Of a stretch of DNA of 64,000 nucleotides, positions 29,240 to 38,889 are shown one piece after another. The stretch's first letter is position 1, and every line of letters begins with the position of its first letter. The stretch comes from Methanosarcina sp. MSH10X1 (GTDB taxonomy: Archaea; Halobacteriota; Methanosarcinia; Methanosarcinales; Methanosarcinaceae): assembly GCF_004099695.1 (NCBI RefSeq), contig NZ_SCHL01000004.1, positions 62,001 to 126,000 of the forward strand. The letters run 5' to 3'. Below the pieces are notes generated by a model. That model made no database searches and had not been told where the DNA came from. It saw only the letters and a program-made list of their open reading frames with translations. The position numbers and the translations under genes are program-made.

Positions 29240-30994
29240 TCATGTTTTGGGTTTTGTGAAAATTTCTTTAAGCCTGGAGCAGGGATAGGTGTTCACAACG
29301 TCTTCTTTTTCGAGCCAGCCGCGCCGCGCCTGCCCGAGCCCGTAACGCATGAAGGAAAGGCCGGTGGTGGAATGGCTGTCGGTGGAGATGCAGAATTTAA
29401 GGTCAAAGGTCTTTGCTCGCAGGATGAGCTCGTCGTTGAGGTCAAGCCTTGAGGGCTGGCTGTTAATCTCAATAACTTTTCCGTTTGCAGCCGCAGCTTC
29501 AAAAACTTTCTCAAAATTAACGGCATAGGGTTCTCTTCTTCCGAGCAGCCTGCCCGAAGGATGTCCAAGAATATCAAGATACCTGTGTTCCAGAGCCGTG
29601 ACAATCCTTTCGGTCATTTTTCTTTCAGGGGATGCAAAACCGGAATGTATAGACCCGACGACAACATCGAGTTCCCTGAGAATTTCGTCAGGATAGTCCA
29701 GGCTTCCGTCTTTCAGGATATCAACCTCGGAACCTTTAAGAATTTTTATCCTGAAACGTTTCGAGAGTTTGTCAATTTCTTCCCATTGGGCTTTTAGTTT
29801 TTCGATTTCCAGGCCATTGGCAACCTTCTGGGAACGCGAATGGTCGGTTACTGCGATATACTCATAACCAAGAGCCTCTGCTCTTCCTATCATGGTTTTA
29901 AGGCTGTCTTTTCCCTCACTGTAGGTTGTGTGCATATGGAGATCTCCCCTGAGATCCCCGGGCTCTATCAGCCTGGGCAGAGTATTTCTTGCAGCGGCTT
30001 TAATTTCTCCCCTGCTTTCCCGAAGTTCGGGAGGAATGTAGATAAGCCCAAGTCTATCATAAATCTCTTCTTCGCTATTGCCTGCTATCTGTTCTCCTGA
30101 TTCCTTTAAATACAGCCCGTATTCCGAGAGTTTGTAACCGTTTTTAATGGCAATATTCCTGAGCTCTATATTGTGTTCCTTTGAGCCCGTGAAATACTGA
30201 AGAGCTGCCCCGTAGCTCTCAGGCGGGACTACTCTCAAGTCAATAGCAGTTCCTTCTCTCAGAATTACGCTGCTTTTTGTGCTGCCTTTTAAGATAACCT
30301 GATCAACGTCCGGAAGAGAGACAAAACAATTCATTACCTCTGGAGCCTCTTCTTTTTCGGCTTCTGCCAGGATGTCGATGTCCCCGATAGTTTCTTTCAA
30401 CCTGCGAAGTGAGCCTGTGTAGATTATCTTCGAGAGATCGATTTTAGGGTTTGTGTCCTGACATAAGGCTTTTAAAGCGGATATAACCTCCTCTGCAAGT
30501 GGAAGCGCCTTCCCCAGAGCTATCCGGGCGTGACTTTTCTCATACTGCTCAATTGCTCTTGCCAGATTTTCTTCGCTTTTTTCTCCAAAGCCCTCAAGCC
30601 TTTTGAGTCTGTGGGCAGTAACTGCGTCTTTAAGGTCAGAGAGGGTTTTTATTCCAAGGGCATCGGTAAGTTTTTTCATTTTCTTTGCCCCAAGCCCCCG
30701 GATCTCAAGCAGTTCCGCAGCGCCCAAAGGGGCTTTTTCTTTAAGGTTTTCAAACTTCTCTACTTTGCCTGTTTCCAGATACTCGGCAATATGATCGGCA
30801 ATGGACTCTCCAATACCCGGAATTTCGGTCAGTCCGGTTTTCCCTTTTCTGGCATAGATCGCTTCTATGTCCTCTCCGAGATTTTCTATCATCTGGGCTG
30901 CTTTCCGATAAGCCCGGGGTTTCCATTCAACCTGCTGGTATTCAAGAATATCGGCAGCCTCATAAAATAACTCGGCAACTTCGCGATTTTTCAA
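29240..30994 (-). CDS. polX: Family X DNA polymerase/PHP exonuclease (PolX)
   Basis: 584 residues; gap-filling repair polymerase with a 3'-5' exonuclease. Order: helix-hairpin-helix region (about 40-150, ALGIKTLSDLK, LTEIPGIGESIADHI), nucleotidyltransferase with GSLRRLKETIGDIDILAEA (catalytic DxD), second catalytic Asp at AIDLRVVPPESYGAALQYFTGS, then a C-terminal PHP domain starting GDLHMHTTYSEGKDSL with VTDHSRS and ISTDSHST metal ligands. The length and architecture are typical. It lies 74 nt downstream of the DNA ligase gene on the same strand, suggesting a lig-polX repair operon. Confidence 0.94.
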   Translation of the reverse strand: MKNREVAELFYEAADILEYQQVEWKPRAYRKAAQMIENLGEDIEAIYARKGKTGLTEIPGIGESIADHIAEYLETGKVEKFENLKEKAPLGAAELLEIRGLGAKKMKKLTDALGIKTLSDLKDAVTAHRLKRLEGFGEKSEENLARAIEQYEKSHARIALGKALPLAEEVISALKALCQDTNPKIDLSKIIYTGSLRRLKETIGDIDILAEAEKEEAPEVMNCFVSLPDVDQVILKGSTKSSVILREGTAIDLRVVPPESYGAALQYFTGSKEHNIELRNIAIKNGYKLSEYGLYLKESGEQIAGNSEEEIYDRLGLIYIPPELRESRGEIKAAARNTLPRLIEPGDLRGDLHMHTTYSEGKDSLKTMIGRAEALGYEYIAVTDHSRSQKVANGLEIEKLKAQWEEIDKLSKRFRIKILKGSEVDILKDGSLDYPDEILRELDVVVGSIHSGFASPERKMTERIVTALEHRYLDILGHPSGRLLGRREPYAVNFEKVFEAAAANGKVIEINSQPSRLDLNDELILRAKTFDLKFCISTDSHSTTGLSFMRYGLGQARRGWLEKEDVVNTYPCSRLKEIFTKPKT

Positions 30995-31068: not shown

Positions 31069-32817
31069 TTATACATCTTCGCCTTCCTTCAAGTTCCTGA
31101 TCTCTTTAACTGTATTGACATCAAAGGGACCTTTGTCGTATCTTATGCGCAAAAAGCGAGGAAAGCGCAGAGCAAGCCCTGTATTTCCTTCCTCCTGTCC
31201 GGCGGTATGACCAGGGCTTTCCGTAATTTCCATACCAAGGACTTCAATAACAACAGCAGGCTCTACGAAAATATCCGGGAGCATTCTACTCTTTACAAAC
31301 ACGTTCTTCGGGATTTCAGTGAGAATATGTCCTGAGAGCAGGCTGTTGATTTCCTTTGCATTCTCTTCTGTAAATCCTGTACCTACTTTCGTAAAGGTTT
31401 CAAAACGCTGTTCTTCTTCGTTAAAAATTGCGCAGAGGAGGGCTCCAAATGAACCTTTTCTTTTTCCTCTCCCGTAATACATTCCTACAATTACAAGGTC
31501 AAAAGTCTCCCGCATCCCCTCGGCATATTCTTCTTTCCATTTGAGCCAGAACCAGCTCCTTTTTCCGGCTTCGTAGACCGAATTACTGCTCATGGATTTG
31601 ATTATAACTCCTTCAAGCCTTTTTTCCAGAGTCTCGTTAAAAAAATCCTCGATCTCTTCAAGATTATCCGTAACAATTCTTCTAGCCAGGCGAAGAGCTT
31701 TTGATTCATTTACATGGTCTTCGAGAAAAGCCCTTCTTTTCGGATACGGTTCTTTCAGAAGGGAATTTCCTTCAAGATACAGGATATCGAAAAAGAACAC
31801 GGCAACAGGGCAGATTTCAGTGTATTTTTGAACCTCATATTTTCTGCGCCTCTGCATCAGTCTCTGAAACGAATAAAATTCTCCGGTAGAATCATCGGCT
31901 TTCCTGCCTTCAAGGTATGCAATGATTTCTCCGTCAAGTACGGCTTTCTCCGCGCTGATGCCTTTCCTGACCGCCTCCACAAGATCAGGATACTGGGCAG
32001 TTATATCTTCAAGCCTTCGAGAGAAGGCTTTGATCTCGTCTCCGTCTTTATGAATCTGTACCCTTTCCCCATCATATTTTTCTTCGGCTGCTTTTCTTCC
32101 GGGAATTCTCTTCTCAAGCTCTTCGAAAGTTCCCACGCGCTGGGCAAGCATTGACCTGACAGGGCGCCCAGGCTTTATGGAAAAGCGTCCAATAGCTCCA
32201 GGACCGTATTCTTCAAGGGATTCTGCAAGCTCTCCAATATCAGTGCAGAGACTATAACTTTCCTTGATCTTTGCGGCGTACTTTTTATCCCCTGTAAAAG
32301 CAATAGAAAATGCCTCAAGCAAAAACTGGTCCCCAAATCCCAGCCTGAGCTTCCCGAGCACAATCCTGACTATATATTTTCCTTCTTCAGGACTGGCTCG
32401 CTGCAGAATACCGGAAAGCAGTCTGATTTTTTCTTCTATGCTTCCTTTTCCTGAAGCTGCTTTTATCTCTCTGAGCTTTTCGAATACTTCATCAATTGTC
32501 AGCAATTTTCCTTCTCCCCTGTTTAACTCGAAAGCTACATCGCCAAGGTCCCCTATCGTTGAGTATCTTTTTTTAACTTCTTCTTCGGAAATCTCATATG
32601 CCCCTGCAATAGCTTTTAAAGCAAGCTTATCCCCTACTCCCAGTGTCGTACTCTCAAAAGCAGGCCCTATGCTCCCGAGGAAAAGGTATGCACTGTCCTT
32701 TACTTCCTTTCCTTCAAGTTCCTAGAAAAAGTTGGCAATTTTCCTGACAATTTCCTTATGAGATGTTATCTTTTCAAGTTCATCAAAAAGCTCTGCAAGC
32801 TCTATAAACCGAGCCAT
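31069..32817 (-). CDS. lig: ATP-dependent DNA ligase with in-frame UAG (candidate pyrrolysine codon)
   Basis: 582 residues if the single in-frame TAG (32722-32724, codon 32) is read through. The N-terminal DNA-binding domain runs from ARFIELAELFDELEK to KIANFF, then TAG, then ELEGKEVKDSAYLFLGSIG, continuing with no frame change. The ATP-accepting lysine is in EEKYDGERVQIHKDG (about K247), and later motifs include AVLDGEIIAY and EGVIIKSMSS. The ATG at 32817 has a GGAGAG ribosome-binding site. Without read-through, only a short peptide and a possible TTG restart (32505) lacking the first 104 residues would be made. Methanosarcina decodes UAG as pyrrolysine, so read-through is plausible. Position 32 is probably Lys/Arg-like in homologues. 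The gene seals nicks in replication and repair. Confidence 0.9.
32722..32724 (-). other. In-frame TAG codon in DNA ligase
   Basis: The codon (cta on the plus strand) is in phase with both the start at 32817 (31 codons before) and the open frame below 32505 (73 codons after). It follows AACTTTTTC and precedes GAACTTGAAGG. It is one base from AAG (Lys) or CAG (Gln). Confidence 0.95.
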
Positions 32818-33032
32818 TGCCCTCTCTCCGAAAAAAACGCTTTGAAATTTTTCTCTATTCTATTATTCCCTTCTAAGGTCTTTATCGCTTTGCACCCTCA
32901 AATTTCAGAAATAGAGTTTTTTTTCTCTTCTTGAAATAAAACAGCCATCTCTGCCGTTCTTCCTCATTACCGAAACCTTTAATATCTAAAAGATTCATGA
33001 GAAGAATACACAGCACTTCTTTACATCCTTAT

Positions 33033-35060: not shown

Positions 35061-36236
35061 ATGAAATTGAAGCTGGTAATCTCTCTTTTAGCGCTATGCC
35101 TGGCACTGTCTATGGCATCCGTGCAGGCACAGGGTAATGCGATCGCAGATATGGACGAAATAGATGTAATCATGGCCGGAAATATTACTGAAACCATTAC
35201 ATGCAATATAACCGGAAACGCGGTTATGATCGAAGAAACGAATAATATGACCGGTAATATGACTGACAACATGACCGGTAACATGACCAATGGCATGGAT
35301 AACATGACCGAAGATGCGGATAACATGTCCAACGGTATGGATAACATGACCGAAGGTATGGATAATATGACCGGTAATATGACCGAAGGTATGGATAATA
35401 TGACCGGTAATATGACCGAAGGTATGGATAATATGACCGGTAACATGACCGAAGGCATGGAACTTGATGTGACTGGACGGATGATCCTGATCAGGGATAT
35501 GGCCAATATGACTGAAAAAGCAGTTATGGTCGGAAGAATGGATGGTATGTCTGGAAGTGTGGTCATCTTCGGAAGGACAGAAAACATAACTGGCATGGAA
35601 AACATGACTGATAACATGACCGGAAATATGACCGGAAACATGACTGGAAACATGACTGATAACATGACCGGTGACATGACTGAAGGTATGGACAAGATGA
35701 CTGTGGTCCTGATAGGAGATATGAGTGGAACCATCACGCTCAACCCGACCGAAGACATGGGCAACATGACTGATAACATGGACAACATGACTGTACGCAT
35801 GGCTGGAAATATGACCGGAAGTGTTACAGGTGATATGACCAGACAGATAGTTATGATTAAAAACGTTGGTGGCATCAATGAGATGTCCGAAATAATGGGT
35901 AATATGACCGGAATGGTTGGGGATACAGGTGACCAACCCGCGGAGTGTAATCTTACCGGAAAGATGGTTATAATTAGTAATGTAGATTACATGGTCGGAA
36001 CTGTAGATAAAATAGAAAAAGGTCTGACTGACCTGACCACAATGGATGGAGATAAGACTATGATCGGAGATATTACTGACATCTCCGAGATGGACGAAGG
36101 TACAGATGAAGACATGTATAACATAACCGGAAAGCTGGCTGTAATCAGGAGCATGGATGACACGATTTCAATCGTGACCAAAAACGTTACCTGTGATGTA
36201 AATCAAACTGCGACTGAAGTGGAAAGCATGACCTGA
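35061..36236 (+). CDS. Exported Met-rich, sequon-repeat protein (paralogue 1)
   Basis: 391 residues. The signal peptide is clear (KLKLVISLLALCLALSMASVQAQG). The mature protein is built of near-continuous DNMTGNMT/EGMDNMTG units, with about 30 N-x-S/T glycosylation sites and a methionine every three to four residues. Between the repeat blocks lie short beta-like segments of the type MTGRMILIRDM, GKMVIISNVD and GKLAVIRSMD. There is no cysteine motif comparable to paralogue 2. Nothing matches a family I know. An exposed, heavily N-glycosylated surface polymer is likely; metal binding by the MxxM pattern is inference. The ribosome-binding site is GGGGGT before ATG. Confidence 0.8.
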   Translation: MKLKLVISLLALCLALSMASVQAQGNAIADMDEIDVIMAGNITETITCNITGNAVMIEETNNMTGNMTDNMTGNMTNGMDNMTEDADNMSNGMDNMTEGMDNMTGNMTEGMDNMTGNMTEGMDNMTGNMTEGMELDVTGRMILIRDMANMTEKAVMVGRMDGMSGSVVIFGRTENITGMENMTDNMTGNMTGNMTGNMTDNMTGDMTEGMDKMTVVLIGDMSGTITLNPTEDMGNMTDNMDNMTVRMAGNMTGSVTGDMTRQIVMIKNVGGINEMSEIMGNMTGMVGDTGDQPAECNLTGKMVIISNVDYMVGTVDKIEKGLTDLTTMDGDKTMIGDITDISEMDEGTDEDMYNITGKLAVIRSMDDTISIVTKNVTCDVNQTATEVESMT

Positions 36237-36798: not shown

Positions 36799-38889
36799 AT
36801 GAAAATAAAGTTAATAGTTTCTCTGCTAATACTCTGCCTTGCTTTTTCATTTGGATTAGCGCAGGCGCAAGAGGGAGAAAATAACACATCTTCACAGAGA
36901 AACTTAACCGCAGCAGATGAAATGTGTACACTTGAAAATGTAAATAAAACTATTAATATTAGCCAGGAAACCGGTGAGGATGTTAAATGGATTCTTCCGG
37001 GTCCGAGAAGCCTCGATCCTCAGATTTTCGGAACTCCTGAAATGCCACTGGGATTTGAACCGGAAATTGGTGTGCCAATAGAGAACAGGTCTGTGAGTGG
37101 GGATGAATTTACCACAACGTCGGTGCCAACGCCCTATTCTGATAATTTCTCGCGCATTAATGGTTCCTTCACCATGAATTTAACAGACAACACTCCTGTG
37201 GATGTAAATGAATCCGAAGATATGGCTGAAGCCGAGTTCAATTTCACGGACCCGACAGGAGAAATCAGGTACAGGGTTGTCCTGACAAATATTACTCGCG
37301 TTGGGCAGTTCCATCCGGTCTTTGGCGGTGTGGTTGTCGATGGCATCGCACATGGAAAGACTGGAATAGACACTCGTATGGAACCAACTTCTTATGCTTA
37401 CGGAGCTGTATGGGGGGTAGGAGAACTTTACATAAATGATACTCTTGTCAGCGATAACAGGGTAATACATGCCATGGCAACCGAACGTATCAGGAATCCT
37501 GATCAGCAGGGATACAGGCTGCTCTTTGATAACGAACTGCCTCACAGGGGCATACAGGCTCATCTCGTGCTGCCTGAGAAGGTGATGGCTGACAATGGAA
37601 CAATGCAGGAACAGCCAGTGCCTACCAACTACAGTCTGCCAGACGGAGAAAACCAGACTTTTATCCATGTAGCGTTTGACGATCCCCAGCTTGAAGGGCT
37701 TGAGATCCTCGATTTCGACAACGCGACAACAACCGTGGACAACAGGACTGATATGGATAACATGACTGGCATGGATAACATGACCGGTAATATGACCCAG
37801 GAACAGGCTGGAAATTTGACCCAGACCCAGACCACAAACTTAACCCAAATCCAGACTGCAAACCTTACTCAGACCCAGACTGCTAACTTAACCGAAACAC
37901 AGACTGGAGATATGACCAATAATGTGTCTGGAACCACGGACAATGTTACTGGCATGGATAACATGACTGGCATGGACAATGTTACTGGCATGGATAACAG
38001 GACTGGTATGGGCAATGTGACCGGTATGGACAACAGGACTGACATGAAGACGTGTTATCTTGCCGTAGCCATAAAATGTTATATTCCTGAAACGATGGGC
38101 AATCTGACTGCCATGGATAACAGGACTGCCATGGATAACAGGACGGGTATGGACAACGTGACTGGCATGGACAATAGGACTGGTATGGACAACGTGACTG
38201 GCATGGACAATAGGACTGCCATGGATAACAGGACGGGTATGGAGAGATGTTATCTTCTCGGAGCCATGAGTTGTTATACGCCTGAAGCTTTGAATAATAC
38301 GACAGCAATGGACAATATGACTGGAATGGATAACGGGACAGGCATGGATAACATGACCGAGACGAAAACCTGTTATTTAGCCGGAATGATGAAATGTTAT
38401 GTTCCCGAAGCTGTGGGTAACGTGACTGGCACAAACAATACAACTCGCATGAACAACATGACTGAAACAAAGTCCTGTTATTTAGCCGGGGTCATGAAAT
38501 GTTATATGCCTGACATGGATAATATGACTGGAACGAATAACACAACTGGCATGGAAAAGTGTTATCTTCTCGGAGCCATGGACTGTTATACGCCTGAGGC
38601 AATGAATAATACGACAGCAATGGACAACAGGTCTGGAATGGACAACCGGACAGGCATGGATGACAGGACGGCTGTGCAGAGATGTTACCTTCTCGGAGCT
38701 ATGGACTGCTATACGCCCGAAGCTATGGGTAACATGACAGGCACTGACAACATGACTGAGATGGATAATATGAGTGGTACGGATAACACTACCGGAATGA
38801 AGGTTTGTTATTTTACCGGGATCATGAAGTGTTACATGCCCGAAACCATGAATCTCACAGGCATGGATAACGTGACTGAAATGGATTGA
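36799..38889 (+). CDS. Exported sequon-repeat protein with CY repeats (paralogue 2), C-terminally truncated
   Basis: 696 residues. Signal peptide (KIKLIVSLLILCLAFSFGLA) similar to paralogue 1. Residues ~90-300 form an unrecognised beta-rich domain (VVLTNITRVGQFHPVFGGVV and following). From about 315 the protein is MDNMTG/MDNRTG/MDNVTG repeats and a TQTxNL segment, interrupted by seven copies of a motif C-Y-L-x-G-x-M-x-C-Y-x-P-E (for example RCYLLGAMDCYTPEAM). The frame ends in TGA at 38887-38889, but a complete cupredoxin sequence continues in the same phase. It was presumably a larger copper-related surface protein. The paralogue 1 gene precedes it on the same strand. Confidence 0.85.
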   Translation: MKIKLIVSLLILCLAFSFGLAQAQEGENNTSSQRNLTAADEMCTLENVNKTINISQETGEDVKWILPGPRSLDPQIFGTPEMPLGFEPEIGVPIENRSVSGDEFTTTSVPTPYSDNFSRINGSFTMNLTDNTPVDVNESEDMAEAEFNFTDPTGEIRYRVVLTNITRVGQFHPVFGGVVVDGIAHGKTGIDTRMEPTSYAYGAVWGVGELYINDTLVSDNRVIHAMATERIRNPDQQGYRLLFDNELPHRGIQAHLVLPEKVMADNGTMQEQPVPTNYSLPDGENQTFIHVAFDDPQLEGLEILDFDNATTTVDNRTDMDNMTGMDNMTGNMTQEQAGNLTQTQTTNLTQIQTANLTQTQTANLTETQTGDMTNNVSGTTDNVTGMDNMTGMDNVTGMDNRTGMGNVTGMDNRTDMKTCYLAVAIKCYIPETMGNLTAMDNRTAMDNRTGMDNVTGMDNRTGMDNVTGMDNRTAMDNRTGMERCYLLGAMSCYTPEALNNTTAMDNMTGMDNGTGMDNMTETKTCYLAGMMKCYVPEAVGNVTGTNNTTRMNNMTETKSCYLAGVMKCYMPDMDNMTGTNNTTGMEKCYLLGAMDCYTPEAMNNTTAMDNRSGMDNRTGMDDRTAVQRCYLLGAMDCYTPEAMGNMTGTDNMTEMDNMSGTDNTTGMKVCYFTGIMKCYMPETMNLTGMDNVTEMD

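Follow-up and report, generated by a model that had tools for sequence, protein, structure and literature searches.

We analysed a window of 64,000 nucleotides from Methanosarcina sp. MSH10X1 (contig NZ_SCHL01000004.1), which contains a gene for an ATP-dependent DNA ligase whose reading frame is interrupted by a TAG at codon 32. It is very probable, judging by comparative sequence evidence, that this ligase is made full-length by insertion of pyrrolysine at the UAG codon. The original prediction, which was made from the letters of the window, proposed this decoding, and it gains support from three observations: the pyl genes are complete, the TAG is conserved throughout a clade of Methanosarcina species and there is purifying selection on both sides of it. 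The ligase is an accessory, non-replicative enzyme, and not the essential replicative ligase.

The frame is open from an ATG at position 32817, which is preceded by a ribosome-binding site, to a TAA at 31069, with the TAG at codon 32 as its sole interruption (Table 1). This agrees with the first description of the gene, and the window copy has no lesion besides the TAG. Pfam matches, all over their cut-offs, cover an N-terminal domain (residues 4–171), an adenylation domain (223–428) and a C-terminal domain (453–562). The N-terminal match crosses the TAG unshifted, as had been claimed, so that homology of the coding sequence continues in one frame on both sides. The catalytic lysine motif KxDG is present as KYDG (K247). 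A purine-rich site upstream of codon 1 is retained in nearly all Methanosarcina copies, both those with TAG and those with a sense codon at this position. Within the window, the ligase TAG is the only one that breaks a recognised protein domain; in four other long TAG-bearing frames that we inspected, the TAG appears to end or precede an ordinary gene.

The original prediction suggested a comparison of codon 32 with other Methanosarcina ligases. We searched for homologues in 112 genomes of the family and inspected the matches at this codon. The same TAG occurs in ten Methanosarcina species in which the gene is otherwise open, i.e., in 10 of 10 in their clade (the genomes are labelled G000, which is the window genome, G103, G095, G087, G079, G077, G078, G100, G102 and G080). 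The broken or indel-bearing copies of G076, G090, G089 and G104 belong to the same clade and still carry the TAG. Since all TAG copies form one clade in the gene tree, the UAG had a single origin as far as the tree indicates. The ten copies never use TAG as their own terminator: they end in TAA or TGA, with the G080 copy stopping after a C-terminal frameshift. The six Methanosarcina species lacking the TAG have six different residues at codon 32, namely Leu (TTA), Gly (GGG), Glu (GAG), Ser (AGC), Arg (AGG) and Lys (AAG). In the sister clade, G093 has Leu (TTA) and the G092 pseudogene has TAT, and an alignment with more distant ligases shows that Lys and Arg are common in this column. The original prediction noted that UAG is one base away from the lysine codon AAG; a lysine ancestor is not borne out by the six residues of the TAG-free species or by the Leu or TAT codons of the sister clade. 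A second in-frame TAG is present in a single species, at codon 139 of the G077 ligase (locus L013), where relatives have Gln. This TAG fits an unconstrained drift from Gln to pyrrolysine.

We treated TAG as a sense codon in a codon model, which was fitted to the ten TAG-bearing copies. The ratio of nonsynonymous to synonymous substitution rates (dN/dS, or omega) is 0.177 for codons 2–31 (95% interval about 0.115–0.261), 0.177 for codons 33–104 (0.132–0.228) and 0.169 for codons 105–578. An omega of 1 is rejected in each case, with twice the log-likelihood difference (2dlnL) being 107, 258 and 1671, respectively. On internal branches alone, the ratio for codons 2–104 is 0.128 (2dlnL 162), and the internal branches used in this test all postdate the origin of the UAG. 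Purifying selection thus acts on the product, including the residues before the UAG. Residues before and after the UAG are selected together as protein, a pattern that would be expected only from in-frame passage of ribosomes through the UAG.

Pseudogenes provide a control. Three clear pseudogene copies have a dN/dS of 0.45 on their own branches, versus 0.17 for the rest, and separate ratios for the pseudogenes and for G076 improve the fit (three-ratio versus one-ratio model, 2dlnL 12.5, 2 degrees of freedom). A first version of this control, in which the G076 copy (L053) was included among the pseudogenes, gave an omega of 0.21 and no difference, and G076 was removed from the pseudogene class only after that result was known. 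We removed it because its canonical ligase, discussed below, is also split and because its accessory ligase alone has a dN/dS of 0.16. In the G076 assembly, frameshifts split the accessory ligase, the canonical ligase and the gene for the DNA polymerase PolX alike, a pattern suggestive of indels in the assembly and not of gene loss.

The window genome encodes tRNA-Pyl (anticodon CTA) beside pylS, followed by pylB, pylC and pylD. PylS is found in nine of the ten TAG genomes, the exception being a metagenome-assembled genome that is 75% complete, and tRNA-Pyl adjoins pylS in eight. When five genomes were searched for tRNA-Pyl at the DNA level, there was no match, even in G093, which has PylS, so this search is uninformative. 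Pyrrolysine would be expected at codon 32 because the pyl genes are complete, because M. acetivorans puts pyrrolysine at an introduced UAG (review PMC2933860) and because its insertion requires no cis element (review PMC8211752). No convincing PYLIS-like RNA element was found in the 110 nucleotides from the TAG in the ten species. The weak consensus fold of this stretch (−12.4 kcal/mol) has only two pairs with double changes, and they lie in a coding region. In the mechanism that we propose, translation would initiate at the codon-1 ATG, charged tRNA-Pyl would compete with release factor at codon 32 and the ribosome would proceed to the TAA. The UAG would have entered once, at a site in the N-terminal DNA-binding domain where almost any residue is tolerated, and at least ten species would have retained it as they diverged. 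We infer that pyrrolysine, and not an amino acid from a near-cognate tRNA, is inserted; the protein is probably active and may function in repair.

Another UAG in the pyl cluster itself may be of interest. The pylB gene (L055:4076-5191) appears to end at a TAG just ahead of the overlapping pylC. If this TAG were read as sense, pylB would be extended by approximately 20 codons, and one UAG would then have two meanings inside the cluster. The same situation at the pylB TAG and pylC overlap was described for other Methanosarcina (PMC2933860).

The UAG could instead be a recent nonsense mutation, with the remainder of the gene decaying. UAG is ordinarily a stop, and related copies are indeed broken in G104, G089, G090, G092 and G091. 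However, the UAG predates the radiation of the ten species, and dN/dS is near 0.17 over the whole gene, codons 2–31 included, while dN/dS is 0.45 in the clade's true pseudogenes, which have other lesions too. We regard such decay as highly improbable, and for the clade it is refuted by the ratio of 0.13 for codons 2–104 on internal branches. The probability of a sequencing or assembly error is negligible: although the window assembly is a draft of 55 contigs, the same codon is present in ten independent genomes, some of whose assemblies consist of one or two contigs. This ten-genome conservation of the TAG rules out chance as well as error. It is also very unlikely that translation restarts after the UAG to give a functional ligase with a shortened N-terminus. 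The adenylation and OB domains lie entirely beyond codon 104, which would permit a restart, but codons 2–31 and 33–104 are constrained as strongly as the remainder, and the purine-rich site ahead of codon 1 is retained. Moreover, the restart envisaged in the original prediction, a TTG at 32505 (codon 105), is not conserved among the TAG copies, and no start codon between codons 33 and 165 is common to at least seven of the ten. The only conserved start candidates after the UAG are TTG 166 (8 of 10 copies) and codon 223, the first fully conserved ATG, neither of which has a clear ribosome-binding site in the sequences inspected.

The remaining alternative is that a near-cognate standard tRNA, and not tRNA-Pyl, reads through the UAG. 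It would leave the same evolutionary trace as pyrrolysine, and sequence conservation cannot separate the two. However, a dedicated UAG-decoding tRNA, its synthetase and the genes for pyrrolysine biosynthesis are present, and this tRNA should outcompete near-cognates; we therefore consider near-cognate decoding improbable. The shared trace counts against our preference for pyrrolysine, as do several other points. The case is built from sequence comparisons, and the codon models were purpose-written (single-rate, GY94-type, F3x4, with FastTree topologies). The G080 ligase has a frameshift near codon 527, which may represent a recent loss. In addition, several species have lost the ligase or carry a broken copy of it, so it is dispensable.

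The original prediction described the ligase as a core and essential enzyme, and this part is not supported. The window genome also holds, elsewhere, an intact canonical ATP-dependent ligase of 568 amino acids that is 37% identical to the accessory ligase and is adjacent to a gene that, from its sequence, we take to encode homoserine dehydrogenase. The accessory status follows because the canonical ligase is present in every one of the ten TAG genomes (it is incomplete only in the G100 assembly). The canonical ligase occurs throughout the genus, with a ligase N-terminal domain in 31 of 31 genomes, and it is the more constrained of the two (dN/dS 0.067). By contrast, many Methanosarcina lack the accessory ligase or have it in broken form. 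The possibility that a second, intact ligase exists while this gene is silent had been raised as well; a second, intact ligase does exist, and the accessory gene is under purifying selection (dN/dS approximately 0.17).

PolX adjoins the accessory ligase in relatives as well as in the window genome. Based on this adjacency, the ligase probably acts with PolX in repair, in which it would seal nicks after gap filling by the polymerase. Seven genomes (G082, G084, G085 and G096–G099) lack both the accessory ligase and PolX, and some other species have kept PolX with the ligase lost or not intact. The G089 PolX gene (L092) has a single in-frame TAG in a frame that is otherwise open, and is another candidate for pyrrolysine in a single species.

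The pyrrolysine of methylamine methyltransferases is a catalytic, active-site residue. The ligase resembles MtmB, MtbB and MttB in that its UAG is conserved across species and would be decoded by the same pylTSBCD genes. However, the ligase UAG belongs to the N-terminal DNA-binding domain. It is distant from the catalytic lysine along the sequence, and its position is variable in TAG-free relatives. Proteins with pyrrolysine outside the methylamine methyltransferases are, to our knowledge, mostly confined to one species and without sign of long-term use. The best precedent for the ligase UAG is Thg1, the tRNA-His guanylyltransferase of M. acetivorans, in which pyrrolysine was physically seen (Heinemann et al. 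2009 as described in PMC2933860). Like the ligase, Thg1 is not a methyltransferase, belongs to a pyrrolysine-decoding Methanosarcina and has one in-frame UAG. Pyrrolysine is not needed for Thg1 activity at its site, which fits a neutral gain. The two cases differ in that the Thg1 UAG occurs only in M. acetivorans (PMC2933860) and its pyrrolysine was observed, whereas the ligase UAG occurs in at least ten species and is known from sequence data. In 'Ca. Methanomethylophilus alvus', 16 proteins beyond the methyltransferases were predicted to contain pyrrolysine (PMC4153887). These are also ordinary genes with in-frame UAGs, tolerated since UAG is efficiently read. The ligase differs from them in its clade-wide UAG and in that dN/dS was tested on both sides. 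The ligase shares its three-domain architecture and nucleotidyltransferase motif with solved archaeal ATP-dependent ligases from S. solfataricus (2hiv, the best PDB match, 2.5e-125), Thermococcus (3rr5) and P. furiosus (2cfm). In contrast to these, it is a second paralogue beside a canonical ligase, is paired with PolX and bears a UAG.

The main texts of three pyrrolysine surveys (PMC3639795, PMC1242214, PMC1914089) do not mention this ligase, although a prior listing in supplements or other papers is possible. The new aspect is the clade-wide retention of a UAG in an enzyme of DNA-repair type. Over many speciation events, UAG would have functioned as a sense codon in the gene of an ordinary enzyme. 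Selection, beyond similarity, indicates that Methanosarcina translates UAG in a gene unrelated to methylamines. Where gene callers stop at TAG, the ligase will be annotated as a truncated gene or a pseudogene. If pyrrolysine is inserted, this mechanism implies that the ligase level would drop under pyrrolysine shortage, and the ligase permits a direct test of whether pyrrolysine supply limits DNA repair.

The reason for the persistence of the UAG is a separate matter. At codon 32 the six TAG-free species have six different residues, which is true of no other codon, but the ten TAG species show no variation there. If change to any sense codon were neutral, the probability of no change of the TAG would be 0.088 for 10 copies, 0.047 for 11 and 0.027 for 14. 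The signal is weaker in an empirical comparison: of 16 other codons that show four or more kinds of residue in species lacking the TAG, two likewise do not vary in codon across the TAG clade. These retention data hint that the UAG itself is selected, either as a pyrrolysine-dependent valve near the gene start or because pyrrolysine suits the site, and that ligase output would be tied to pyrrolysine. We regard such selection as possible but rather doubtful. It is simpler to suppose that the UAG entered a tolerant site neutrally, which is what has been argued for Thg1.

Table 1. Features of the ligase region, in window positions
Feature	Position	Strand	Basis
Accessory ATP-dependent DNA ligase, 582 codons via the TAG at codon 32	31069..32817	minus	Reading frame; Pfam PF04675, PF01068, PF04679
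In-frame TAG, codon 32, proposed pyrrolysine	32722..32724	minus	Frame inspection; kept in 10 species
GGAGAGAGG, ribosome-binding site of the codon-1 ATG	32821..32829	minus	Sequence; G-rich, purine-rich stretch kept in relatives
Lys247 of the KYDG motif, expected adenylated lysine	32077..32079	minus	Intact and invariant in alignment
TTG codon 105, restart proposed in the original prediction	32503..32505	minus	Start codon not conserved
PolX-type DNA polymerase with PHP exonuclease domain, probable operon partner	29240..30994	minus	Directly downstream of the ligase; domain matches

Elsewhere in the window, two genes (35061-36236 and 36799-38889) encode secreted-looking proteins with degenerate MTGNMT or MDNMTGMDN repeats that are rich in Asn-X-Thr sequons.
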